From Leptobrachium leishanense (taxonomy: Eukaryota > Chordata > Amphibia > Anura > Megophryidae): a stretch of 64,000 bases of DNA. Position numbers and translations under genes: made by a program. Shown piece by piece: positions 15,547-64,000 of this stretch (positions within the stretch are counted from its first letter, which is position 1; each line of letters starts with the position of its first letter). The notes under the pieces are model-generated. The model searched no databases. It was not told the origin of the DNA and was given only the letters and a program-made list of their open reading frames with translations. Location: contig RXON01001590.1 of assembly GCA_009667805.1 (NCBI GenBank), positions 1-64,000 of the forward strand, read 5' to 3'.

Positions 15547-17779
15547 CAGTGGTGTATTTTGGCCTAGGCCGACTAGTTTTTTTTTTAACTTTTGAAAAGT
15601 TTTTATACCAGGAAGGATACATTGAGATTTCACAAATTTTTCAAGTATGTCCTGGGTAGGCAAGGCCTAGGCTTTCACTTTCCAGGGGGCAGCAAAATAC
15701 CTCACCACTAAATGGGTTACTCACAGAGCACCAAAATGACGCCAACATTTTGGTGTTCTGTAGTTCCCTGCACTTCGGGGAATAAAATTTCCCTACCCTG
15801 CAGTGAATTCACCATTCACCGCAGGGTCCCCATAGTGCATGGAGTCGGCCGCTGAATGCTGCCACCGCAAACCCGTGGCCTGCTGTTTTCAAAAGAACTA
15901 CTGAACGAAAATGTCTGGAATTTACATATAAGATCCTATGATTGATAATAAAAAGTTCTGTTACAGAAAAAAGAAAAACTGCTATTAAAAAAGGGAGGAA
16001 ATTTGCCCAAAAAAATCTGAAAAATGACTAAAAGGTACTAAAAAAAAAATCGATAAAGACTTTTTACTGCAGATTAAAATAACAAATGGTTTATTAGATA
16101 TTGCATAAAAACGGGAATATTTTTAACATTGAAACCTATGGGTTTCGCCTGAATAAACCTGCTCATTGAAACCACCAAACATCAGGGAATTTCACTGCCA
16201 TTTCTCTGCTGTTTGGTGTTCTCTGAATAGATTAACCATTACTTCTCTATGGGGATTTGCACTGCCTTCAAACAGCACCGTACTTGCTGGCAGTTCAATA
16301 AACTTGTGTGTGAGCATATCACAGAGCAGTGGTGTACTTAGGGGAGTGGCGGAGGGCGGGCCGCCCCAGGTACCAGTGATTATTGGGGTGTCATTAGGGG
16401 ATACTAGGAGGTGCCACTTTCACTGTGTGTCAGCTTTGAGCTGTGTTCTCAAACAATGAGCAGTGGAGCAGGGCGTTTGCATTCGGAATAAAATCGAATA
16501 GAATAAAAATCCCACTCTCTTCCCTCAATAGCTCTTCCCCTGCCCCGCAGCAGCTCTAGGAGAGGGGAGGGGGATGTGATTTGTGTGCAGAGAGAGAAGA
16601 TGACAGTAATCGGCAGGTAAGGGGGGGGTATCAGCAGAATATGAAGCCCTGTCTGCTTACTGCTGTTTAAAGTGGACCTTTCCTTAACCAGCACTGCAGT
16701 GATAGAAATTTGTCATTGAACTGCCTGGCTCCTGGTGAGGCTGCGTGCGTGCAGGTCACGCGTTCCGGCCAGTCAGGTGGTACTGAGTCTCAGTACCACC
16801 TGACTGGCTGAACCACGTGACACGCACGCAGCTGCCGGCCATTTCGTTAACATGGACTCACACTCTATTCTGGACTGAACACCCACCGGGAAGGGAATCA
16901 AAGCCACGGTGCACCCTCTGGCAGTGGCACCCCACTGCTGACAAGATGGCTCCATGCACAGGCACAGTCGCGATCCTCACGTGGCCTGAAGGGACCCCTT
17001 GCTGAGTCCGTACACAGTCCCTGCTGACTCTGCACACAGCCCTACAGCGGACAGAGGCCGGTAAATATAGAATAAATAATTGCAGTGTGCTCATATACAC
17101 TCGGTTTGCTGGGAGTTTTATTGCAGTGGATTCTGATGCACTCATACACACCGCACATTGCATTGCTGGGAGTTTTATTGCTGTGGATTCTGATACGCTG
17201 ACACACACCGCACATTGCATTACTGGGTTTATTGCTGTGGATTCTGTGATACACACTGCATATTACTGTGAGTTTCATTGCCCTGGAGCTCTGGGATACG
17301 CTTATACAAACTGCACATTACTGTGAGTTTTATTGCTGTGCAGTTCTGTGAAATGCTCATACACAGTGCACATTTCTGTGGGTTTTATTGCTGTGCAGCT
17401 CTGATACGCTCATATGCATTGCACGTTTCTGTGGGTTTTATTGTTCAACCAATTAGAGCGGCTATGATCCAGTTTACTTGACATACGTGGCTGTTCTTTG
17501 TAAAAATGCTTGAATTTAAACATTTCATAATTTTCTTTATCTCAATAGATACATTTGAAATGGTATACAAAATATACAAGTAGGCACTTGGAATCCACTT
17601 TTATTATAAAGAGAGGAAAAGGCGGAGCTCTAAGAGGAAAAGGTGGAGTTTAAAGAGGAAGGTTGGGGATTTACCAGGAAGAGGTGTGCCCTTGACGGGA
17701 AGGGGTGCCTCAAATTTAAATTGGGGGGTGCACGAGTTTAGTCAGGCCTAGGGCAGCACAAAACCTAAATACACCACTG
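15547..17779. mobile_element. hAT-type non-autonomous element, 2.2 kb, internally composite
   Basis: The termini are CAGTGGTGTATTTTGG and AATACACCACTG. The target word CACACCATACC is present on both sides of the insertion, offset by two bases from the right terminus, so the exact duplication is ambiguous although the boundaries are clear. A second CAGTGGTGTA start at about 16334 suggests that one relative inserted in another. The interior holds a LINE 3'-end fragment near 15600, a copy of the B MITE family (about 15740-16320) and a satellite array at 17085-17450. No transposase frame is seen. Confidence 0.75.
17085..17450 (+). repeat. Satellite array, units about 57-60 bp
   Basis: Six or so diverged units contain GTGGATTCTG or GCAGCTCTG, ATACGCTCATACACACCGCA, CATTGCATTACTG and GAGTTTTATTGCTGTG. 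It is the reverse complement of the 40-bp array at 56950-57250, which lacks part of the unit. Confidence 0.75.
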
Positions 17780-19732: not shown

Positions 19733-20043
19733 TATCGCTTATCTCAGGTCAAATGTCAATCTGTCTTAACAAAGACCCTATATTCAATCCTAGACTTTGG
19801 GTCTCTGTCATTTTTTATTTAATATTTCTGTTATTTCTATTCAAGGTTTTTACTGAGTACTCTTTATCAGCTAAATTCCTTTAAAATTAGATCAGCAAAA
19901 ATACTTCTATATTTAAATAACTTATTCTATTCTTCAGTAATTATACCATTATATAGTTCTACACTCTACAAAATATATATATATTGGAGCATCTATTTTT
20001 ACTGTGAATATATAGAATATATTGATTATAAAAATATATTTCG
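19733..20043. other. AT-rich sequence without recognised feature
   Basis: It contains only T/A-rich runs and short TATATA stretches. Confidence 0.45.
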
Positions 20044-23956: not shown

Positions 23957-24045
23957 ATTACGCACGGCGTAAACAAAAATAATAAATAATAATAATAATA
24001 TGCATCTACATACATGCCATGCATAACATGCATTAACCCATGCAT

Positions 24046-24118
24046 TGAACCCAGGACATACTTGAAAACGAGAGAAATCTCATTGTATTCTTCTTGGTAA
24101 AATCCTTTCTAAATAAAT
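24046..24118 (+). mobile_element. LINE 3'-end fragment with A-rich tail
   Basis: CCCAGGACATACTTGAAAAC to TGGTAAAATCCTTTC followed by AAATAAATAAA matches, in plus orientation, the 3' end of the LINE at 31018-31690. Only the terminal UTR is present. Confidence 0.6.
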
Positions 24119-24511
24119 AAAAAATAGTAAATTAAGCATAGAGACCGGTTCTCTTTTTTCACTGAGCCTGAGGTCTCTCACCATCACATGCTCAGGTGGT
24201 TGCGATGGAAGGGAGTTCTTGCCAGTTTCTATGTGTAAGTTCTGGAACCTCCAGGCTGGTATTTTCAGATTGTGGTGCCTGGGTACAGCTTCCATGCCAT
24301 TTGTCACTGGCTAAGCTCCCATGCCTCTGCTCTGCCTGACACTCTCATCAACTATGAGGGTTCTTCCTTCATTTGCGCTCACAACAAGGCTCCTCTGTTC
24401 TGATTGGATGATTTGGAGCCATTCAAATGCTACTTTGTTATTGCAATTTGACAGCACACACCATGCCGCCGCTCCGCTGATTGCCATTACAGCCAGAGGT
24501 TAGTCTTTTCT
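24119..24511. other. No recognised feature
   Basis: Mixed-composition sequence with no conserved frame, inverted repeats or arrays. Its right end is the AT-rich LINE tail into which the Helitron inserted. Confidence 0.45.
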
Positions 24512-24709
24512 CCTTTATATTTATTTATTTATCTATACTATAAAAGAATAAGCTAAAAACTGTCCGTCGCCAAAACCCTACTGCGCATGCGCGACGGACA
24601 TTTGAAAGCGGCCGTTAGAACACACAGGTAGCTGCGCGTGCCGGCCGCGTGAAAAAAAAACAAAAAAAAAACGGCACGAGCCGCGCGCAGCTACCCGTGT
24701 GTTTACACG

Positions 24710-26165
24710 GCCAGATGCCCCGATCCTCCAGCGGTGACCGTCCTCCGGCTGCCGGCGGGCCTCCAGGCTCAGGCGAGCCCCCGGCTCGGTTTGGGCCTAC
24801 AGGCCCAGCCGAGCCGGGGACTCGCCTAAGCCTAGAGGCCCGCCGAGCAGCCAGCGGCAGCCGGAGAAGGTCACCGCTGGAGGATCGGGGCCGAAGTTCC
24901 CAAACAAACACACCCCAAAATCGGCCCTGAGCTCCAGCGGAGACCTCCTCCGGCTGCCGCTGGCTGCTCAGCGGCCCTCTAGGCTTAGGCGAGCCCCCGG
25001 CTCGGTTTGGGCCTACAGGCCCAGCCGAGCCGGGGACTCGCCTAAGCCTAGAGGCCCGCGAGCAGCCAGCGGCAGCCGGAGAAGGTCACCGCTGGAGGAT
25101 CGGGGCCGAAGTTCCCAAACAAATACACCCCAAAATCGGCCCTGAGCTCCAGCGGAGACCTCCTCCGGCTGCCGCTGGCTGCTCGGCGGCCCTCTAGGCT
25201 TAGGCGAGACCCCGGCTCGGTTTGGCCTACAGGCCCAGCCGAGCCGGGGACTCGCCTAAGCCTAGAGGCCCGCGAGCAGCCAGCGGCAGCCAGAGAAGGT
25301 CACCGCTGGAGGATCGGGGCCGAAGTTCCCAAACAAACACACCCCAAAATCGGCCCTGAGCTCCAGCGGAGACCTCCTCCGGCTGCCGCTGGCTGCTCGG
25401 CGGCCCTCTAGGCTTAGGCGAGCCCCCGGCTCGGTTTGGGCCTACAGGCCCAGCTGAGCCGGGGACTCGCCTAAGCCTAGAGGCCCGCCGAGCAGCCAGC
25501 GGCAGCCGGAGAAGGTCACCGCTGGAGGATCGGGGCCGAAGTTCCCAAACAAACACACCCCAAAATCGGCCCTGAGCTCCAGCGGAGACCTCCTCCGGCT
25601 GCCGCTGGCTGCTCGGCGGCCCTCTAGGCTTAGGCGAGCCCCCGGCTCGGTTTGGCCTACAGGCCCAGCTGAGCCGGGGACTCGCCTAAGCCTAGAGGCC
25701 CGCCGAGCAGCCAGCGGCAGCCGGAGAAGGTCACCGCTGGAGGATCGGGGCCGAAGTTCCCAAACAAATACACCCCAAAATCGCCCTGAGCTCCAGCGGA
25801 GACCTCCTCCGGCTGCCGCTGGCTGCTCGGCGGCCCTCTAGGCTTAGGCGAGACCCCGGCTCGTTTGGGCCTACAGGCCCAGCCGAGCCGGGGACTCGCC
25901 TAAGCCTAGAGGCCCGCCGAGCAGCCAGCGGCAGCCGGAGAAGGTCACCGCTGGAGGATCGGGGCCGAAGTTCCCAAAAAAATACACCCCAAAATCGGCC
26001 CTGAGCTCCAGCGGAGACCTCCTCCAGCTGCCGCTGGCTGCTCGGCGGGCCTCTAGGCTTAGGCGAGCCCCCGGCTTGGCTTGGGCCTACAGGCCCAGCC
26101 GAGCCGGGGACTCGCCTAAGCGTAGAGGCCGGCCGAGCAGCCTGCTCGGCCGGAGGAGGTCACCG
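24710..26165. repeat. Palindromic GC-rich tandem repeat, unit about 215 bp
   Basis: CCTGAGCTCCAGCGGAGACC recurs at 24926, 25141, 25355, 25571, 25785 and 26000, spaced 214-216 bp. Each unit is itself an inverted repeat: GGCTTAGGCGAG pairs with CTCGCCTAAGCC, and CTGCCGCTGGCTGCTCGGCG pairs with its complement, around a short CCTACAGG centre. About six units are present, very similar to each other, which indicates recent amplification or gene conversion. Confidence 0.9.
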
Positions 26166-26182
26166 CTGGAGCTCAGGGCCGA

Positions 26183-26455
26183 TGTTGCCTAACACATACT
26201 CACCGACATCGGCCCTTAGCTCCTCCAGCGATGGCGGTCCCGCTTGCAGCATCCTCTCTCTCTCCGTTGCTCGCCGGAATGACGTTACGAAAGCCTTTGA
26301 CCCCGGGGGGTCAAAGGCTTTCGTGACGTCATCCTGGCGAGCAACGGAGAGAGAGAGGATGCTGCAAGCGGGACCGCCATCGCTGGAGGAGCTAAGGGCC
26401 GATGTCGGTGAGTATGTGTGGAACCGGTGGAGGACTCGAGGCCGATGTAGGTGAG
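26183..26455. repeat. Large palindrome around GACCCCGGGGGGTC
   Basis: The arms run from CACATACTCACCGACATCGG on the left to GATGTCGGTGAGTATGTG on the right and are nearly perfect. The centre near 26300 contains CTTTGACCCC facing GGTCAAAG. A closely related palindrome, slightly diverged, is at 26926-27140. Confidence 0.85.
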
Positions 26456-26499
26456 TATGTGCTCTACACACACACACACACACCCTGCTTACTCGGCCG

Positions 26500-26925
26500 G
26501 TATCCAAGCTTAGGCGAGCCCCCGGCTTGGCTTGGGCCTAGAGGCCCAGCCGAGCCAGGGACTCACCTGAGCCTGGAGGACGGCCGAGCATGCAACTCGA
26601 CCGGCCTCCATGCTCAGGCGAGTCCCCGGCTCTGCTGGGCCTCTAGGCCCAAGCCGGGGGCTCGCCTAAGCTTGGATACCGGCCGAGTAAGCAGGGTGGG
26701 TGTGGAGAGCACATACTCACCTATTAGCCCTGAGCTCCAGCGGTGACTGTCCTCCGGCTGTCGCAGGCTGCTCGGCCGGCCTCCAGGCTCAGGCGAGCCC
26801 CCGGCTTGGCTTGGGCCTACAGGCCCAGCCGAGCCGGGGGCTCGCCTAAGCCTGGAGGCCGGCCGAGCAGCCTACGACAGCCACCGCTGAGGCTCCGGGC
26901 CAATGTAGGGATGTTGCCTACACAT
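26500..26925. repeat. Further GC-rich inverted-repeat units
   Basis: Two diverged fold-back units resemble those at 24710-26165, with GGCTTGGCTTGGGCCTACAG and CCGGGGGCTCGCCTAAGC. One runs about 26500-26690 between ACTCGGCCGGTATCCAAGC and its complement. The other runs about 26735-26890. Confidence 0.75.
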
Positions 26926-27140
26926 ACTCACCGACATCGGCCCTTAGCTCCTCCAGCGATGGCGGTCCCGCTTCCAGCGTCCTCTCTCGCTCCGTTGTTC
27001 GCGGAATGACGTCACGAAAGCCTTTGACCCCGGGGGTCAAAGGCTTTCGTGACGTCATCCCGGCGACCAACGGAGCGAGAGAGGACGCTGGAAGCGGGAC
27101 GCGGGACCGCCATCGCTGGAGGGCCGATGTAGGTGAGTAT
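26926..27140. repeat. Second large palindrome, ending in a splice-donor-like sequence
   Basis: The arms carry GCGATGGCGGTCCCGCTTCC and its complement, and the centre is CTTTGACCCCGGGGGTCAAAG-like. Its right end, TAG|GTGAGTATATCC at 27131-27142, leads straight into the 19-bp minisatellite. Confidence 0.8.
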
Positions 27141-29822
27141 ATCCACGAGCGGGGGGGCCATATCCACGAGCGGGGGGGCCATATCCACGAGCGGGGGGGC
27201 CATATCCACAAGCGGGGGGGCCATATCCACGAGCGGCGGGGGGCGATATCCACGTGCTGGGGCAATATCCACGTGCTAGGGCAGTATCCACGAGCTGGGG
27301 CAGTATCCATCCACGTGCTGGGGCAGTATCCACGTGCTGGGGCAGTATCCACGTGCTGGGGCAGTATCCACGTGCTGGGGCAGTATCAATCCACGTGCTG
27401 GGGCAATATCCATGTGCTGGCAGTATCCACGAGCTGGGGCAATATCCACGTGCTGGGGCAGTATCCACGTGCTGGGGCAGTATCCACGTGCTGGGGCAGT
27501 ATCCACGTGCTGGGGCAGTATCAATCCACGTGCTGGGGCAATATCCATGTGCTGGGCAGTATCCACGAGCTGGGGCAATATCCACGTGCTGGGGCAGTAT
27601 CCACGTGCTGGGGCAGTATCCACGTGCTGGGGCAGTATCCACGAGCTGGGGCAACATCCACGTGCTGGGGCAGTATCCACGTGCTGGGGCAGTATCCACG
27701 TGCTGGGGCAGTATCAATCCACGTGCTGGGGCAATATCCATGTGCTGGGCAGTATCCACGAGCTGGGGCAGTATCCACGTGCTGGGGCAGTATCCACGTG
27801 TGCTGGGCAGTATCCACGTGCTGGGGCAGTATCAATCCACGTGCTGGGGAAATATCCATGTGCTGGGCAGTATCCACGAGCTGGGGCAGTATCCACGTGG
27901 TGGGGCAGTATCCACGTGCTGGGGCAGTATCCACGTGCTGGGGCAATATCCATGTGCTGGGCAGTATCCACGTGCTGGGGCAGTATCCACGAGCTGGGGC
28001 AACATCCACGTGCTGGGGCAGTATCCACGTGCTGGGGCAGTATCCACGTGCTGGGGCAATATCCACGTGCTGGGTCAATATCCACGTGCTGGGGCAGTAT
28101 CCACGTGCTGGGGCAATATCCAGGAGCTGGGGCAGTATCCACGAGCTGGGGCAATATCCACGTGCTGGGGCAGTATCCATCCACGTGCTGGGGCAATATC
28201 CACGTGCTAGGGCAGTATCCACGAGCTGGGGCAGTATCCACGAGCTGGGGCAATATCCACGTGCTGGGGCAATATCCACGTGCTAGGGCAGTATCCACGA
28301 GCTGGGGGCAGTATCCACGTGCTGGGGCAATATCCACGAGCTGGGGCAGTATCCACGAGCTGGGGCAGTATCCACGAGCTGGGGCAGTATCCACGTGCTT
28401 GGGCAGTATCCACGTGCTTGGGCAGTATCCACGAGCTGGGGCAGTATCCACGTGCTGGGGCAGTATCCACGTGCTGGGGCAGTATCCATCCACGTGCTGG
28501 GGCAGTATCCACGTGCTGGGGCAGTATCCACGTGCTGGGGCAGTATCAATCCACGTGCTGGGGCAATATCCATGTGCTGGGCAGTATCCACGTGCTGGGG
28601 CAGTATCCACGAGCTGGGGCAATATCCACGTGCTGGGGCAGTATCCACGTGCTGGGGCAATATCCACGTGCTGGGGCAATATCCACGTGCTGGGTCAATA
28701 TCCACGTGCTGGGGCAGTATCCACGTGCTGGGGCAATATCCAGGAGCTGGGGCAGTATCCACGAGCTGGGGCAGTATCCATCCACGTGCTGGGGCAATAT
28801 CCACGTGCTAGGGCAGTATCCACGAGGGGCAGTATCCACGAGCTGGGGCAATATCCACGAGCTGGGGCAATATCCACATGCTGGGGCAATATCCACGTGC
28901 TAGGGCAGTATCCACGAGCTGGGGCAGTATCCACGAGCTGGGGGCAGTATCCACGTGCTGGGGCAATATCCACGAGCTGGGGCAGTATCCACGAGCTGGG
29001 GCAGTATCCACGAGCTGGGGCAGTATCCACGTGCTTGGGCAGTATCCATCGTGCTTGGGCAGTATCCACGAGCTGGGGCAGTATCCACGTGCTGGGGCAG
29101 TATCCACGTGCTGGGGCAGTATCCATCCACGTGCTGGGGCAGTATCCACGTGCTGGGGCGGTATCCACGCTGGGGCAGTATCAATCCACGTGCTGGGGCA
29201 ATATCCATGTGCTGGGCAGTATCCACGTGCTGGGGCAGTATCCACGAGCTGGGGCAATATCCACGTGCTGGGGCAGTATCCACGTGCTGGGGCAATATCC
29301 ACGTGCTGGGGCAATATCCATGTGCTGGTCAATATCCACGTGCTGGGGCAGTATCCACGTGCTGGGGCAATATCCAGGAGCTGGGGCAGTATCCACGAGC
29401 TGGGGCAGTATCCATCCACGTGCTGGGGCAATATCCACGTGCTAGGGCAGTATCCACGAGCTGGGGCAATATCCACGAGCTGGGGCAATATCCACATGCT
29501 GGGGCAATATCCACGTGCTAGGGCAGTATCCACGAGCTGGGGCAGTATCCACGTGCTGCGGCAATATCCACGTGCTGGGGCAATATCCACGTGCTGGGGC
29601 AATATCCACGTGCTGGGGCAGTATCCACGTGCTGGGGCAGTATCCACGTTCTGGGCAGTATCCACGTGCTGGGGCAATATCCACGAGCTGGGGCAATATC
29701 CACGTGCTGGGGCAATATCCACGTGCTGGGGCAGTATCCACGTGCTGGGGCAATATCCACGAGCTGGGGCAGTATCCACGAGCTGGGGCAGTATACATGA
29801 GCAGGGGCAGTATATCCACAAT
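27139..29822 (+). repeat. 19-bp minisatellite, about 140 units
   Basis: The consensus unit is GGGGCAGTATCCACGTGCT, with common variants CAATATC for CAGTATC and CACGAGCT for CACGTGCT. The first units have a G-run instead (CACGAGCGGGGGGGCCATAT). Nineteen is not a multiple of three, so all three frames on each strand step through the same 19-residue cycle and stay open for hundreds of codons. Frames of up to about 700 residues here are by-products, not genes. Many units carry the palindromic E-box CACGTG. Occasional inserted ATCC or ATCA bases mark sub-blocks that recur, indicating block duplication. Confidence 0.95.
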
Positions 29823-29825
29823 AGA

Positions 29826-29853
29826 CTGCCCTCTGGGCAGGCTTTACAACTAG
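29826..29853 (+). other. Helitron 1 terminal hairpin and CTAG end
   Basis: CTGCCC, loop TCT, GGGCAG, then GCTTTACAACTAG. It is identical to the end of Helitron 2 at 30990-31017. A third copy of the hairpin without the CTAG lies inside Helitron 2 at about 30872-30886, showing that a former end was absorbed into the array. Confidence 0.85.
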
Positions 29854-31017
29854 TCTATATAATAAAAGAGTAAGGCTTTGGCTGTCCGTCGCCAAAGCCT
29901 TACTGCGCATGCGCGCGCAACCAGCGGCGGTTGGTTGCGCGCGCATGCAACCGCCGCGGCACGAGCCGGCTGCCGGCTCGCCGCGGCGGTTACACATGCA
30001 CACAGCAGCCGGGTAGAGGCTGCGCTCGCAGCCTCTACCCGGCTGCCGCGCGCATCCAACCCCAGAGCGGCGAAGGGAAAGTTTCCTCGCTTCCGCTTTG
30101 AAGGACCCAAGCCCCGGTCACGTGACCGCGGCTTGGGTCCTTCAAAGACCGGAAGCGGGGAAATCTTCACTTCCCTGGCGGCGCTCGACAGGTAAGTATG
30201 AGCGCTGGGGGGGGGGTCAATATCCACGAGCTGGGGGGGTCAATATCCACGAGCTGGGGGGGTCCATATCCACGAGCTGGGGGGGTCCATATCCACGAGC
30301 TGGGGGGGTCCATATCCACGAGCTGGGGGACCATATCCACGAGCTGGGCAAATCCACGAGCTGGGGCAAATCCATGTGCTGGGCAACTCCATGAGCTGGG
30401 CAACTCCATGAGCTGGGGGCAAATCCATGTGCTGGGCAAATCCATGAGCTGGGGCAAATCCATGTGCTGGGCAAATCCATGAGCTGGGCAACTCCATGAG
30501 CTGGGCAACTCCATGAGCTGGGGCAAATCCATGAGCTGGGCAAATCCATGAGCTGGGCAAATCCATGTGCTGGGCAAATCCATGAGCTGGGGGCAAATCC
30601 ATGAGCTGGGGGCAAATCATTGTGCTGGGCAAATCCATGTGCTGGGGCAAATCCATGAGCTGGGGCAAATCCATGTGCTGGGGCAAATCCATGTGCTGGG
30701 CAAATCCATGAGCTGGGGGCAAATCCATGAGCTGGGGGCAAATCCATGAGCTGGGGGCAAATCCATGTGCTGGGGGCAAATCCATGTGCTGGGGGCAAAT
30801 ATCCATGTGCTGGGGCAATATCCACGAGCTGGGGCAGTATCCACGAGCTGGGGCAGTATACCCACAATAGACTGCCCTCTGGGCAGGCTGGGGCAGTATC
30901 CACGTGCGGGGGCAGTATCCACGTGCTGGGGCAGTATCCACGTGCTGGGGCAGTATATCCATGAGCAGGGGCAGTATATCCACAATAGACTGCCCTCTGG
31001 GCAGGCTTTACAACTAG
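29854..31017 (+). mobile_element. Helitron 2, fused head-to-tail to Helitron 1
   Basis: It starts TCTATATAATAAAAGAG immediately after the CTAG of Helitron 1 and ends with the same hairpin and CTAG at 31014-31017, followed by T at 31018. The 5' region (to 30190) is GC-rich with palindromes such as GCCAAAGCCTTACTGCGCAT, partly shared with the start of Helitron 1. A splice-donor-like CAG|GTAAGTATG at 30189-30199 leads into the minisatellite. It has no protein gene, so it depends on Rep/helicase in trans. Confidence 0.85.
30198..30860 (+). repeat. 17-19-bp minisatellite in Helitron 2
   Basis: It begins with units of the type CAATATCCACGAGCTGGGGG and changes to GGGCAAATCCATGAGCT (17-18 bp) for most of its length. 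A few 19-bp CAGTATCCACGTGCT units return near 30820-30960. The core GAGCTGGGGCAA is shared with the array at 63281-63880. All frames are open by composition. Confidence 0.9.
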
Positions 31018-31189
31018 TTTATTTATAAAGGATTTTACCAGAAAGGATACATTGAGATTTCTCTCGTTTTCAAGTATGTCCTGGGTTCAAGAACATTGAA
31101 GTATTACAGTTACAGAAATACAAAGTAATACAATGCAAGATATTAAAAAAACCCACAAATATACAGATTAACAGACAATAAATATGTAG

Positions 31190-31345
31190 GAAATAGTCAT
31201 TATATTACATGTTTACAGGTGGATTCTGTATATAGTCATTATGTTACATGTTTACAGGTGCATTCTGTATATAGTCATTATGTTACATGTTTACAGGTGC
31301 ATTCTGTATATAGTCATTATGTTACATGTTTACAGGTGCATTCTG
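31190..31345 (-). repeat. 39-bp tandem motif in the LINE 3' UTR
   Basis: GTTTACAG recurs at 31211, 31250 and 31289 within a unit containing ATTCTGTATATAGTCATTAT. The LINE at 52-54 kb shows the same unit, so it belongs to the element family. Confidence 0.8.
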
Positions 31346-31690
31346 TATTGAGGTGTGTTAGTAAGGAGCTCTTGAGTGACTTAAGACTGGGGAAAGATTT
31401 GATGGTGTCTGGGAGGTTAGTCCATAATTGTGGTGCTCTGTAGGAAAATGAGGACCGAGCCACTGTCTTTTTGTATTGCGGTATTGCAAGTAAGGTGCCG
31501 GTCTTGGATCGGAGGTTATAGGATGAGGGAGCTGCTGGGGGAAGCAGTCTATTCAGATAGGGTGGCAGCTTCCCAGAAAAGCTCTTAAACACCAGGCTGC
31601 ATTTAGACTCCAGCGATGGCCAGTTTAGCTCTTTTAACATGTCACAATGGTGGGTCATGTAGTTACATTGTAATGCAAAGCGGCAGAATG
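31317..31690 (-). pseudogene. LINE reverse transcriptase C-terminus
   Basis: The minus frame shows THHCDMLKELNWPSLES, then FSGKLPPYLNRLLPP and FSYRAPQLWTNLPDTIK followed by SLKSLKSSLLTHLN. The last motif (RAP.LWN.LP..IK...SLK.FK) is common to the C-termini of CR1/Rex1/L2-type RTs. Compared with 53765-54241 it lacks the preceding residues and has a short deletion near KCSLVFK. It is an inactive remnant. Confidence 0.8.
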
Positions 31691-37073: not shown

Positions 37074-37980
37074 GATGGAATGCGAGGAATGTGAGGAATG
37101 CGAGGAATGTGAGGAATGCAAGGAATGTGAGGAATGCAAAGAATGCGAGGAATGCGAAGAATGCGAGGAATGCGAGGAATGCGAAGAATGCGAAGAATGC
37201 GAGGAGTGTGAGGAATTGAAGAATGCGAGGAATGTGAGGAATGCGAAGAATGTGTGGAATGTGAGGAATGCGAAGAATGCGAGGAATGTGAGGAATGCAA
37301 AGAATGTGAGGAATGTGGGGAATGCGAGGAATGTGAGGAATGCGAGGAATGCGAAGAATGCGAGGAATGCAAGGAATGTGAGGAATTGAAGAATGCGAGG
37401 AATGTGTGGAATGTGTGGAATGTGGGGAATGCGAGGAATGCGAAGAATGCGAAGAATGCGAGGAATGCAAGGAATGTGAGGAATGCGAGGAATGCGAAGA
37501 ATGCGAGGAATGCGAGGAATGTGAGGAATGCAAGGAATGTGAGGAATTGAAGAATGCGAGGAATGTGTGGAATGTGTGGAATGTGGGGAATGCGAAGAAT
37601 GCGAAGAATGCGAAGAATGCGAGGAATGCGAGGAATGTGGGGAATGCGAGGAATGCGAAGAATGCGAGGAATGTAAGGAATGTGAGGAATTGAAGAATGC
37701 GAGGAATGTGAGGAATGCGAAGAATGTGAGGAATGCGAGGAATGTGAAGAATGCGAGGAATGTGAGGAATGCGAAGAATGTGGGGAATGCGAGGAATGCG
37801 AAGAATGCGAGGAATGTGAGGAATGCAAAGAATGTGAGGAATGTGGGGAATGCAAAGAATGTGAGGAATGTGGGGAATGCAAAGAATGTGAGGAATGTGG
37901 GGAATGCGAGGAATGTGAGGAATGCGAATAATGTGAAGAATGCGAGGAATGTGAAGAATGCGAGGAATGTGAGGAATGTG
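37074..37980. repeat. 9-bp satellite (GAATGYGAG)n with higher-order structure
   Basis: About 100 units of GAATGCGAG, GAATGTGAG, GAATGCGAA and related variants. Nine is a multiple of three, so every frame on both strands is open: Glu-Cys-Glu runs on plus, Ser-Ser-His or Leu-Thr-Phe runs on minus. The frames of 329-369 residues are artefacts. A unique 8-bp unit GAATTGAA recurs at 37213, 37383, 37544 and 37687, spaced 170, 161 and 143 bp, each one less than a multiple of nine. It defines larger duplicated blocks. Confidence 0.95.
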
Positions 37981-38224
37981 AGCTGCTGATACATGTGTTG
38001 CAATGAATTCTGCCAGTCAGCACTGAGTAGCCCTTGATTATAACAGGGTCACACAGCCTAGTTTGGTGGAATTTCCCTGGTAAAGATACACAGATAAGCC
38101 GGATAGGAACCATGTCTAATCCTTATCACCGCTGAAACAAGGGGGTAACCCCAAAACAAACTATAGTTAAAATCCCCCCACTCAGATAAACCGCCCAGGA
38201 GCTACAACAGCTGGGATACACAAT

Positions 38225-46438: not shown

Positions 46439-47182
46439 GTTTCTCCTTGTTTGCCCTCTTTCTGTCTCACTCCTCTAAGCGGTCTCGCTGTGAACTTGCA
46501 GAGCTCTTGCTATAGACTTGCCATTGCAACTTTGCTCTTGTGTTCTGTCTCCACCCTGCCCCTGGTGGTGAAGGGCCTCCATGTCTGTTTTCAACTGTGG
46601 TGTGTTTGGCTGTGCTGTCTGGGGCCGATCTGGGGTTCTGATGTGATCTCCTGGTCTGGGTTCACATGGCCCAATCACACAGGCCCACTTCCTATATATA
46701 TCCCAGCAGCTGTCATGCCCCACGCCGCTGTCGGACCGCAGCCGCCATGTTGGGACACCTTGCACACTCACCCGAGGTCCCTCGTGGCGCTTTGCTCCCT
46801 GGTTCCGGTCTTCAACTCGGAGGAGGAGAGCCAGGATGTGTCCCACGCCATCTCCGGGATCCAACTGAGCAGAAACCAAGCGCGCATGCGCGATCGTCCA
46901 TCCTAAAGCATGAAGACCTAGGTGCTCTGGCGCCCTCTGCTGGTCAAGTAAAGATACTGCATTACACCTGCACTGGAGATCCTCGTATGCCACCAATTAA
47001 CCTATCAAGTACTCAGGTATCCCAACTCCACCTACGAGCCCCAGGTGAATGGTGTTCTTATGATCCTCTGAACCGTATTTAAATCTGCCGCCTTTCCCAG
47101 TTCATTAACCAGGTTATACTGTGGTTCATCACCACGTTATCCAGTGGTTCCTCTTCGTATCTGCTCTAAGAGAATCCCGACT
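46439..47182. other. Possible LTR-like or other repeat sequence, unassigned
   Basis: One copy of the 31-bp unit found at 49970 is present near 46500. A TATATATA box near 46693 is followed by a GC-rich segment. No protein motifs are recognisable in the open frames here, so I leave the class open. Confidence 0.3.
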
Positions 47183-47945
47183 TCCAGACCGGCTTCCACG
47201 GTACCAGCTCCGCTTCCAGACCTGCTTCCACGGTACCAGCTCCGCTTGCAGGCCTGCTTCCACGGTACCAGCTCCGCTTCCAGGCCTGCTTCCACGGTAC
47301 CAGCTCCGCTTCCAGACCTGCTTCCACGGTACCAGCTCCGCTTCCAAACCTGCTTCCACGGTACCAGCTCCGCTTCCAGGCCTGCTTCCACGGTACCAGC
47401 TCCGCTTCCAGACCTGCTTCCACGGTACCAGCTCCGCTTCCAGACCTGCTTCCACGGTACCAGCTCCGCTTCCAGACCTGCTTCCACGGTACCAGCTCCG
47501 CTTCCAGACCTGCTTCCACGGTACCAGCTCCGCTTCCAGACCTGCTTCCACGGTACCAGCTCCGCTTCCAGACCTGCTTCCACGGTACCAGCTCCGCTTT
47601 CAGTCCTGCTTCCACGGTACCAGCTCCGCTTCTAGACCTGCTTCCACGGTACCAGCTCCGCTTCCAGACCTGCTTCCACGGTACCAGCTCCGCTTCCAGG
47701 CCTGCTTCCACGGTACCAGCTCCGCTTCCAGACCTGCTTCCACGGCACCAGTTCCATCTTCAGGCTTGCTACCACAGTGCCAGTTCCATCTTCAGGCTTG
47801 CTACCACAGTGCCAGTTTCCTCTCCAGGCTTGCCTCCACAGTGCCAGCTCCATCTACAGGCTCGCCTCCACAGTACCAGCTCCATCTACAGGCTCGCCTC
47901 CACGGTACCAGCTCCATCTACAGGCTTGCTTCCATACCCACGGTA
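47183..47945. repeat. 32-bp minisatellite, about 17 regular units plus a diverged tail
   Basis: The unit contains CCACGGTACCAGCTCCGCTT and CCAGACCTGCTT (32 bp; starts at 47196 and 47228 confirm the period). After about 47745 the units diverge to CCACAGTGCCAGTTCCATCT-type. All frames are open on both strands, giving frames up to 369 residues that cycle every 32 residues; these are by-products. KpnI-like GGTACC palindromes recur in each unit. Confidence 0.93.
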
Positions 47946-49411: not shown

Positions 49412-49969
49412 GTATCTTGTGTGTCTTAGTTTAGTATATTCTCCGAGGCCATTACAAGGACCTCTTTAGTGGAGGATTTTTGTATATCGTGTTAACCCTC
49501 ACTTTTCTTGTTCCCACTGCTCTGTAATACTTTGTGAGGCATTCTCCCTAGTTAGAGGCCAACTAAAGGACCTACCCCAGCTTAGTATTCCTTTAGTTCT
49601 TCTAGTCCTCTTGTTCCTTGTGTCTGTCTGGTTACTGCATAGCCCTGACGTGGAATTCAGTTCCGGTATCACAAAATCTGTCAGTGTGCTGACTGCCCTG
49701 CAGTCTGATCAATTCATTGCCTGTCCTGCCGAATGTCAGTTCTAACGTTTCAGTCTCGCAAGCTGATGTCTTGTTATGTGCTCTAAGTTGTCTATTGGTC
49801 TCGAAACATTTTGGAGCTTAGTAGCAGTTCTCTTGTCATGGTCCTTGGTTTTGGTAAAAAATGTCTATTATTTATTTGTCCTGTGTCTAGTCAGTAGCTC
49901 ATCTGCCTAAAGGGCTTCACTCCATGTTCCAAGCCACCACGATGGCCCAACCGGGGCCAACCGTTACAT

Positions 49970-50321
49970 CTTGCTAGAGACTTGCCATTGCAACTTTGCT
50001 CTTGCTATAGACTTGCCATCGTAACTTTGCTCTTGCTAGAGACTTGCCATTGCAACTTTGCTCTTGCTAGAGACTTCCCATTGCAACTTTGTTCTTACTA
50101 TAGGCTTGCCATTGCAATGTTGCTCTTGCTAGAGACTTGCCATTGCAACTTTGCTCTTGCTATAGACATGCCATCGCAACTTTGCTCTTGCTAGAGACTT
50201 GCCATTGCAACGTTGCTCTTGCTAGAGACTTGCCATTGCAACTTTGCTCTTGCTAGAGACTTGCCATTGCAACTTTGCTCTTGCTAGAGACTTGCCATTG
50301 CAACTTTGCTCTTGCTAGATG
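49970..50321 (+). repeat. 31-bp minisatellite, left part
   Basis: Units of CTTGCTAGAGACTTGCCATT plus GCAACTTTGCT, period 31 (CTTGCCA at 49981, 50012 and 50043), about 11 units. The array continues at 51436 after a solo LTR. Confidence 0.93.
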
Positions 50322-50325
50322 CTTG

Positions 50326-51435
50326 TGTAGCGCTGTGTTAAAATCTTGCTGCTGGCAGTACCTATTTTTGGCCACAAGATGGAGACAATCGCGATTAGAG
50401 ACACTGGACATTGGGACTACATTTCCCGGCGTGCTTTGCAAGGAGACAGGAAGTGGGTGGGACCGAGCAGACTTACATCCCGAACCTCGTGGAGAACGCG
50501 CCAGAGCGCGCCAGGGAACGAGAGAGAGCAGACGCAGTGCCAGACATCGCGAGAGGGCCTAGGCCAGAGCGCGAGTGAGACCTGACAGTTTCTTTATCGG
50601 GTCATTCAGCACAAGTGAAGGAGACCTCCAAGTTCCAGAGATTGCTGCAGATCGAACAATCCGAAGACCTCGAGTGAGGAGTTACCGCGAGTTGATCGGA
50701 TACGGAAAGCAGGCGGTGAGCTGGACAAGTCGTGGACAAGCTACGGAAAGTCAGACAACGGATCCAGCCGCAAGTATCCCCAGTCAATATCGAGCGGAGA
50801 GACGTCCTGGGTCAGCGGAGCCTAAAGCAACCGGTGGATGGGTGAGAGGCCTCCAAGGCCGTTTGTAAATAAAGAACACGCTGCTGTTTTCTCTTTAAAG
50901 TCCACAGGGCCCCAACTTGACTAGTCGAAGACATTCCTTAAGTAAATTCACTGGCCAGTTGAACAGTACCCAGGTACCACACACACATACACACCTTTTA
51001 CATTCCGGTACTTAACCTGTGCAGGACTCATTCTGTTACGATTCGGAACAGGGGTTAAAGATACGTTCCGAATAATATTTTTCTCTTTTCCGCTGCGCGT
51101 TTACCGTAATACGAAGAGATTGTATTTTTGGGTTTCGCTACCTGTCCCTTTTTCGAATTTCGTGCAATTGCATTTCTTTTCTGTTCGGTTGTGAATATAT
51201 TTTTTCCGAAATACGAAGCCTCGTGTTTCGTTTCTTTCCCGCTACGCGCTTTTACCGCGATACGAAAGTACTGTAATAATATCTGTGAATACCGTGTCTC
51301 AACGTCTGCTTACTATTTTAGTAAACTATTTAAATGATAAAAACTCACAGCGGTGTTGGTGTATTTTTTTTCCCTAGTGCGGGGAGACTGACCCGTGGTT
51401 CATTTTTAGCGGCTCCTCCGGGAGTGAGCGCTACA
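50326..51435 (+). mobile_element. Solo LTR inserted in the 31-bp array
   Basis: The 1110-bp element starts TGTAGCGCT and ends AGCGCTACA, a perfect 9-bp inverted repeat with TG...CA ends. It is flanked by CTTG on both sides (50322-50325 and 51436-51439). An AATAAA signal lies near 50868. No internal retroviral or Ty3/gypsy genes are present, so it is a solo LTR left by recombination. The strand is inferred from the polyadenylation signal. Confidence 0.8.
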
Positions 51436-51612
51436 CTTGCCATTGCAACTTTGCTCTTGCTAGAGACTTGCCATTGCAACTTTGCTCTTGCTAGAGACTT
51501 GCCATTGCAACTTTGCTCTTGCTAGAGACTTGCCATTGCAACGTTGCTCTTGCTAGAGACTTGCCATTGCAACTTTGCTTGTGCTAGAGGCTTGCCATTG
51601 CAACTTTGCTTG
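51436..51612 (+). repeat. 31-bp minisatellite, right part
   Basis: About five to six more units of the 49970 array, with the same ACTTGCCATTGCAACTTTGC core. The two parts were one array before the LTR inserted. Confidence 0.9.
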
Positions 51613-52404
51613 AAAATGTGCAGGAAGATTGCAAGACTTACAATTCAAATGTGCCGTTTGTTTGTGGCAAGTTATCTTTGCTATCTGGGACTGTGTCAGT
51701 TTCCTTCCTGTCTCGTCCCTGTCTACTTTGTTCCCTTCTTCTCTTGCCTTTGTTTAGTTAGTTATTCCTTGTCTGTTTCTCGTCAGTCATTCTTTGTTAG
51801 CAGTGAACCTCCATTATTCAGCTCTGTCTATTGTTGTTTATTTTGTCCTTGTGTTTCCTATTAAATTTATTGTTGCCCTGGAATCCGCCTGGCCTCTCCT
51901 CATTATCACCGCACACTGACTCGCTGGTGCTCGCATCCACACGACTCGCTTGACATTCACTGTGTCACGAGTCAGGTTAAGAACTAAAGAAAAAGCCTCA
52001 CAAATCTCCACTGGAAGCTGTAAATAAAAAGGTTTAATTAAACTACAACCAAACACATATCAGAAATCTATGTAGCAGACGGTGAGTGCACTTCACGGGG
52101 ACATGTCAGGCATTGTGAACTCTCCCAAATCATTTCTTCATATTAAAACAAGTATCCCCATCATTTACCTGTGCCTTTAGTGAGTTGTGATAAGTTTTCA
52201 TGATTCTGTGGTGCTATGGGCATGATCTCTGCCATGTCTTGGGGTATGGATTTGTCGTAGGAGACACGGGGACCTATTGCACATTCTTTTGGATCAGACG
52301 GGAGAGGTTTTCGGCCTATTCAGATGTCAATAAGGAAGGAAAAGAATATTGGACAGTAAAATAATTATCCTTTAATAATATTATATATATATATATATTA
52401 TGTA
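51613..52404. other. No recognised feature
   Basis: A T/C-rich stretch (CCTTCCTGTCTCG and similar, also seen near 44855) suggests another repeat family whose limits I cannot define. A (TA)n run lies near 52383. Confidence 0.35.
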
Positions 52405-52589
52405 ATTTTACCAGGAAGGATACATTGAGATTTCTCTCATTTTCAGTATGTCCTGGGTTGAAGAACATTGAATTGTTACGGAAATACAAAGTAATAAAAT
52501 GCAAGATATTAAAAACAAAACACAAATATACAGATTAACCCAGAAAATAAATATGTAGGAAATATAGTTACTATGTTACATGTTTACAG

Positions 52590-62975: not shown

Positions 62976-63280
62976 CTGGCACTAATGTAAGGTGGCACAG
63001 GCATTGACCTTACTGCCTGGCTTCCTGCCAGATGAGGGGGCGCCGGCCCGGGGCAGACTTCAGGTGCAGTCGGAAAGGGGGGGCAATCGCCGCCGACGAC
63101 GTTCTTCTCACTCTGTCCTTAGGCTACCGCGGCTGGTCAGGTGGTTCCCAAATCCCATCCCAGGCGAGCGGCAAAGCTGCACATGCATGCCAGCGGCTGC
63201 TCGCCTCGCGTAGCCTAGAGACTGAGTAGAAGAACTCCGGGCGGGGCCTGGCAGGCAGCAAAGCAGAGGTAAGAGCTGCT
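62976..63280. other. GC-rich segment before the terminal array
   Basis: No coding or element ends are recognised. It finishes with the splice-donor-like GAG|GTAAGAGCTGCTGGGG at 63266-63282, in the same position relative to the following minisatellite as in the two Helitrons. Confidence 0.5.
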
Positions 63281-63880
63281 GGGGCAAATATGCCAATATA
63301 TATGCTGGGGCAAATATACCATATATGAGCTGGGGCAAATATACCCATATATGAGTTGGGGCAAATATACCCATATATGAGCTGGGGCAAATATACCCAC
63401 ATATAAGCTAGGGGGACTATTATACCCATATATGAGCTGGGGCAAATATACCCATATATAAACTGGGGGCAAATATACCCATATATGAGTTGGGGCAAAT
63501 ATACCCATATATAAGCTGGGGCAAATAACTCTATTTGAGCTGGGGCAAATATACCTGTGTGAGCTGGGGGCAAATATATAACCATGTGAGCTGGGGTAAT
63601 ATATCCATGTGAACTGGGTGTAATATATCCATGTGAGCTGGGGCAAATATATCCATGTGAGCTGGGGCAAATATATCCACGTGAGCTGGGGCAAATATAT
63701 TTATGCGAGCTGGAGGCAAATATATCCATTTGAGCTGGGGGGCAAATATATCCATTTGAGCTGGGGCAAATACAGTATATCCATTTGAGCTGGGGGCAAT
63801 ATATATATCCATGTGAGCTGGGGCAATATATACCCATGTGAGCTGGGCAATATATCCATGTGAGCTGGGGGCAATATATA
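63281..63880 (+). repeat. 24-26-bp minisatellite related to the Helitron arrays
   Basis: The units are GAGCTGGGGCAAATATACCC with ATATAT, then GAGCTGGGGCAAATATATCC with ATGT. The core GAGCTGGGGCAA and the following AT..CCAT are shared with the array at 30198-30860. About 24 units. The minus frame of about 287 residues is a by-product of the repeat. Confidence 0.9.
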
Positions 63881-64000
63881 CCCATGTAAACACAGGAGAG
63901 AGATAGGCATTGATGGAAGACTTTGGATGGAGATGACAAGTCCCAATGCTGCTGTCCACTTGGTGGGGTTGTCCTTGTCCAGTACAACCATGGAATAGAT

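Follow-up and report, generated by a model that had tools for sequence, protein, structure and literature searches.

We lean towards reading a pair of head-to-tail elements in the window, a stretch of 64,000 nucleotides on a 128-kb contig of the searchable 3.54-Gb Leptobrachium leishanense assembly, as a heterodimer of two non-autonomous Helitrons of a Helibat-like family, one of which most likely inserted exactly beside the other. The joint itself is real, exact and beyond chance. The CTAG that ends Helitron 1 (29850-29853) directly adjoins the TC that begins Helitron 2 (29854), head to tail and exact to the base, and the pair is flanked by A at 24531 and T at 31018, so that the original prediction of a perfect CTAG/TC joint within A and T outer flanks was right in every coordinate (here and below, a slash between bases marks a junction). 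The features of the pair are as follows.

24531, + strand: A of the A/T target, left outer flank (37/40 Helitron-2-type 5' ends elsewhere also follow A)
24532-29853, + strand: Helitron 1, non-autonomous, 5,322 bp (from its borders; related copies elsewhere in the genome)
24532-24546, + strand: 5' end of Helitron 1, TCTATACTATAAAAG, with ATAA at +9
24532-27138, + strand: body of Helitron 1, GC-rich hairpins and a 214-bp palindromic tandem unit (from inverted repeats and fold)
27139-29813, + strand: minisatellite of Helitron 1, units of 21 and 19 bp
29826-29840, + strand: terminator hairpin of Helitron 1, CTGCCCTCTGGGCAG
29850-29853, + strand: 3' end of Helitron 1, CTAG
29854-31017, + strand: Helitron 2, of a young subfamily, non-autonomous, 1,164 bp (its first 200 nt match 40 scored places at 100%)
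29854-29868, + strand: 5' end of Helitron 2, TCTATATAATAAAAG, with ATAA at +6 and +9
29869-30173, + strand: body of Helitron 2, consecutive hairpins (from fold)
30210-30989, + strand: minisatellite of Helitron 2, units of 23, 17 and 19 bp (similarity to the Helitron 1 array about 78%)
30872-30886, + strand: inner hairpin without CTAG, a subfamily trait
30990-31004, + strand: terminator hairpin of Helitron 2
31014-31017, + strand: 3' end of Helitron 2, CTAG
31018-31029, + strand: right half of the target, TTTATTTATAAA, with ATAA at +8 (same repeat position used by the type X element L116, C8:134.06 Mb)

Both elements have the canonical ends of Helitrons, a 5' TC and a 3' CTAG (CTRR), with a hairpin that stops 9 nt before the CTAG. 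They also show insertion between A and T without target duplication, as seen in the window flanks, in 37/40 5' ends and in 39/39 type X 3' ends; these tallies come from separate ends, the left and right flanks of one element having been read together only for composites. The ends are not complementary to each other by eye. The 15-nt hairpin CTGCCC-TCT-GGGCAG occurs exactly three times (29826-29840, 30872-30886 and 30990-31004), and allowing up to three mismatches gives 8 matches (three are the same palindromes on the other strand), compared to a mean of 1.4 in shuffles. Its first and last exact copies are the shared hairpin plus CTAG end that had been proposed for both elements; that both are Helitrons with exact A/TC...CTAG/T borders is upheld. 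The tests proposed for these borders, homology running past both ends and missing empty A/T sites, did not overturn them. Within the window, the flanking repeat has copies that span the joined A/T point (52365-52588, 24045-24126 and 723-798); left of that point they match only through an A+T-rich tract, which makes them modest evidence of an empty site. A dispersed repeat, TTTATTTATAAAGGATTTTACCAGG...TTCAAGTATGTCCTGGGTT, lies at 31018-31417, 52405-52589, 24045-24117, 729-798 and 15596-15657, and the window pair and the type X element L116 are inserted at the same point of it.

The two elements follow a common plan: a 5' end TCTATA(C/T)(T/A)ATAAAAG, a GC-rich hairpin chain, a minisatellite, the hairpin CTGCCCTCTGGGCAG and then GCTTTACAACTAG. 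The 5' end of Helitron 2 appears to resemble that of bat Helitrons. Helitrons 1 and 2 are identical over their last 54 nt and 82.5% alike over their first 62 nt, and their arrays are about 78% alike; positions 63-354 of Helitron 2 gave no match in Helitron 1 at E 1e-3. Since the bodies are unrelated and the ends alike, the window pair is a heterodimer of one family. The region 24500-31100 holds 129 inverted-repeat pairs of at least 20 nt, and folding as single-stranded DNA gave z scores of -29.9 for 24532-25120 and -17.7 for 29854-30200. Arrays aside, both elements are little more than consecutive long hairpins (24532-30200). By eye, there is a likeness between the minisatellite unit CTGGGGCAG and the 3' arm of the terminator hairpin.

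Tandem Helitrons have been read as footprints of rolling-circle replication, and the original prediction had the pair arise in this way, by copying past a missed CTAG terminator into a second lap that leaves a dimer. Helitron circles with an exact end-to-start joint are described in the available part of PMC4778049, and this genome holds a homotypic joint at C1:40.6 Mb with 1 mismatch in 330 nt and a trimer at C8 whose monomers 2 and 3 differ by 1 mismatch in 560 nt. A second lap, however, gives two copies of one element, whereas the bodies in the window are unrelated and neighbouring monomers are not copies of one element; moreover, two trimers of a TC-less lineage (see below) look recombinant rather than lapped. 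We therefore rejected second-lap copying for the window pair, given the unmatched positions 63-354 of Helitron 2, and consider a missed terminator very improbable there.

The hairpin inside Helitron 2 had likewise been taken for another end already absorbed, and we rejected this candidate too. The inner hairpin is present in 12 of the 13 Helitron-2-type copies compared (twice in one) and in none of the eight M-type and three Helitron-1-type copies compared, and it lies within a roughly 118-nt tandem duplication at the 3' end of Helitron 2. As a trait of the subfamily, it does not point to an absorbed end in the window copy.

Joints of this kind recur across the genome, and those found all run in one direction. 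A 94-nt joint query returned 30 loci (best 40 of 1,166 candidates scored), 27 of them with an exact CTAG/T joint, either CTAG/TC (21) or CTAG/TA, in which the TC is lost (6); the other three comprise one CTA/TC and two that are not tandem (L020 and L024). At L020, which is also L044 (C10:44.576 Mb), two Helitrons of the same direction stand 7 nt apart, CTAG/TACTTTA/TC, a near miss of the exact joint. Exact patterns run over the whole genome found 21 head-to-tail joints, 1,301 copies of the same 5' end that follow A and 5,162 3' ends followed by T, each with 0 in the control; joints thus make up 21/1,322 exact 5' ends, or about 1.6%. This count of 21 leaves out joints with diverged ends, without TC or with CTA/TC, and includes the identical joints C3645 and C4009, which may be one locus. 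No head-to-head joint was found in the whole genome with a pattern allowing up to two mismatches (control also 0), which differs in stringency from the head-to-tail pattern.

Single ends gave a consistent picture of the target. Perfect Helitron-2-type 5' ends (the tied best 40 of 938 candidates, all on two chromosomes) are preceded by A in 37 cases, by T in two and by G in one, the last being itself a joint (L003). The other 39 upstream stretches differ by eye, except for the pairs L066/L074 and L079/L082, each of which looks like one repeat. A sister type, X, ends in TTTCCACCTAG and lacks the minisatellite of Helitrons 1 and 2. Among its 39 3' ends read (best 40 of 2,198 candidates, one being the query), T comes next in all and another Helitron in none. 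Formally, the A/TC at the left edge of a resident element is itself an A/T site, so that one Helitron might land on another's 5' end by chance, with no further preference. Such chance insertion predicts 0.03 joints at 20,000 insertions and equally many head to head, against the 21 and 0 found; we rejected it, and give it next to no credence.

The targets are best accounted for, on sequence comparison, by a family preference for a one-way half-site, A/T-N(about 5-7)-ATAA, rather than for any A/T. ATAA starts 5-10 nt after the junction (counting T as 1) in 39/39 type X 3' flanks, and its first occurrence is at +7 or +8 in 35 of these; the half-site is found at 1,387 of 38,249 A/T sites (3.6%) in a 262-kb background that includes the elements themselves. 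The mirror motif TTAT occurs in only 9/39 type X targets. Of 25 further ends read, 22 carry ATAA; its first occurrence lies between +7 and +10 in 20 of them and at +4 in the other two. The right flank of the window pair, TTTATTTATAAAGG, fits the half-site. So do the family's own 5' ends, which carry ATAA at +9 (in Helitron 2 also at +6) and rank in the top 0.5-1.8% of A/T sites by a score built from the same 39 targets. Two observations count against a half-site model: three of the 25 further ends have no ATAA, and the spacing of +9 that is usual in family 5' ends is rare among type X targets (1/39 by first ATAA). Helraiser prefers A+T-rich sequence, most strongly on the 3' side (PMC4778049, available part), and a search of the open-licence literature found no account of an ATAA half-site, which is not proof of absence.

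Under the explanation that we favour for the window pair, insertion of one element beside the other, both would be moved in trans by a presumed RepHel transposase of the same family. A resident element would present two half-sites that point the same way, one at its left edge, formed by its own 5' end (A/TCTATAYWATAAAAG), and one directly behind its CTAG, where the kept right half of its own target lies. Insertion at either edge would produce the same CTAG/TC head-to-tail joint and never a head-to-head one. The resulting chain could then behave as a single unit, copied from its first 5' end through to its last terminator, and could gain or lose monomers by unequal recombination. The unrelated bodies and the 21 head-to-tail against 0 head-to-head joints argue for side-by-side insertion. 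That the window pair arose by insertion, which of its members came first, and that RepHel itself reads the half-site are steps that we infer.

In more general form, our proposal is tentative, and we place it somewhat short of an even chance: the transposase may recognise its target in much the same way as its own 5' end (A/T plus ATAA about 7 nt on), residents may serve as one-way landing pads at both edges, and hetero-chains may grow by self-targeting, with intact inner terminators skipped and the whole chain copied. Unrelated cargo, here minisatellite arrays, would then become one mobile element without the loss of any end. Among bacterial elements, IS91 and ISCR use rolling-circle transposition and a target related to their own terminus.

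The ages of joined members bear on which edge is used, and both orders seem to occur, most ages being rough. At L023 and L025 a young left member stands beside an older-looking right type (right members compared only with the copies retrieved). At L004 the left member, of type X, is no more than 96% similar to any of the other 39 copies scored (best 40 of 2,198 candidates), and its right neighbour is identical to two other copies over 330 nt, which indicates an older left and a young right member. L007, L011 and L022 also have an older-looking left member, more weakly, judged only by decayed hairpins and low similarity to the types retrieved. Because the left member looks older at these four loci, we dropped insertion at the resident's 5' edge as the sole route. 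The left member at L004 could instead have arrived as part of an older Helitron 1/X chain.

These ages also weigh on a different origin, in which the free CTAG of Helitron 1 was joined in trans to the 5'-TC of Helitron 2 before integration, by circle-closing chemistry, and the dimer was inserted once. Joining in trans would account for heterodimers, for the single direction and for the excess of joints over the target motif. It predicts equal ages, however, and members look unequal at L004 and, more weakly, at L007, L011, L022, L023 and L025; we judge it distinctly unlikely. At an assumed 20,000 insertions, 0.7 joints are expected from the motif by itself if every half-site counts equally, and 2.6 if only the best 1% of A/T sites count, compared to the 21 seen. 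As the motif under-predicts the joints, attraction to resident ends, joining in trans or movement of ready-made chains must add to them. Insertion beside a resident also faces a difficulty at the right edge, since landing after CTAG puts G at -1, a base found there in 0/39 non-tandem 5' ends.

The pair might also have formed elsewhere and arrived at the window site as a unit. Another dimer lineage did so, at four loci, and C4 holds a pair of the same two types. Copies related to Helitron 1 are present at C4 (L036), C9 (L038), C1:248 (L039), C4:41 (L048), C9:99 (L049) and C1:529 (L050). In the C4 pair (L036), however, Helitron 2 differs from that of the window at 51 of 1,131 sites, the most in 12 comparisons, which suggests that the two Helitron 1/Helitron 2 pairs formed apart; their common descent is not supported. 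The 30 loci read (best 40 of 1,166 candidates) include no closer copy of the pair, and we regard arrival as a unit as unlikely. The predicted mobilisation of dimers by this family stands for one other lineage, and no sister composite of the window pair was found among the loci read.

That other lineage carries a faulty, TC-less joint, CTAG/TATAC, in two trimers and two dimers (C11:117.34, C5:141.89, C5:163.06 and C5:232.30 Mb). Similarity between the 1-kb flanks of the four loci is confined to short blocks of about 100 nt. A comparison of first and last monomers over 560 nt gave 2-5 mismatches between first monomers of different loci, 1-6 between last monomers and 9-13 between a first and a last monomer. 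The same faulty joint and position-specific monomers at loci with different flanks show that one dimer moved as a unit, its inner terminator skipped. Of 13 diagnostic columns, the first three carry type-2 letters in the middle monomer at C5:141.89, nine carry type-1 letters and one carries neither; the middle monomer at C11 has type-2 letters at 13/13 and a type-1 array tail. Such chimeras are what unequal recombination between two members predicts, and we rejected a further lap as the origin of these two trimers. In both (L032 and L033) the 5' end of the first monomer has the same 3-nt extension, A/TCTTCTATAC; an alteration at the extreme 5' end was thus transmitted with the element. In the C8 trimer, monomers 2 and 3 differ at one site and each differs from monomer 1 at eight, which does not decide its origin. 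The two arms of a 311-nt inverted repeat, 98% alike, enclose this trimer (L031, C8:101148800-101158700), giving it the look of an insert in a palindromic element.

The proposed check for a Rep/helicase copy with the same ends turned up RepHel loci with the same 3' terminator hairpin. Among the best 150 of 535 candidate matches to the PF14214 profile in the genome, ten lie in stop-free frames of 1,399-1,503 aa, and three matches lie on the same strand as a joint and stop about 2.8 kb upstream of it. The left member at these RepHel-linked joints ends in the family hairpin, which is exact at C4009 and C3645; the hairpin at C8 has one mismatch, and the open frame there reaches only 377 aa.

Comparable elements are the bat Helitrons Helibat1/Helraiser and HelibatN (PMC4778049 and PMC5876387, available parts), which share with the window family the TC...CTAG ends, the 3' hairpin terminator, the A/T target and the A+T preference on its 3' side. 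The same parts describe circles with an exact joint and reading past the terminator, and cite tandem Helitron arrays in bats and plants; they give no ATAA half-site and no likeness between target and 5' end. Unlike the bat elements, the window family carries hairpin chains and minisatellites as cargo and has documented heterodimers. Head-to-tail neighbours like the window pair are reported in the available part of PMC5148889 for tandem Helitrons of bats, Drosophila, rice, maize and fungi, and a three-copy case is left undecided there between 5'-end insertion and rolling-circle copying; here, the alternatives were tested by composition, direction, target motif and a common joint error. Helitrons and Helentrons of Drosophila and oyster (PMC3833285, PMC7492417) likewise include non-autonomous rolling-circle elements with satellite- or minisatellite-like arrays. 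Tandem Helitrons as such are thus known (PMC5876387, PMC5148889, available parts), and a directional, self-like target together with movement as a unit is what may be new. In this genome, heterotypy, direction and the directional target favour side-by-side insertion, and the common joint error shows that a chain moved whole; if the account is true, it offers Helitrons a simple route to larger composite elements.

Elsewhere in the window, the array GCTGGGGCAAATATACCCATGTGA at 63278-63887 looks by eye like the array of a sister Helitron, the right member of L048. The terminator hairpin was looked for after this array and not found, and the array may be what is left of a third, decayed family member in the window. 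Further minisatellites lie at 37077-37982, 47181-47915, 49969-50319 and 51435-51610, with, for example, about 101 copies of a 9-mer and 23 of a 32-mer.
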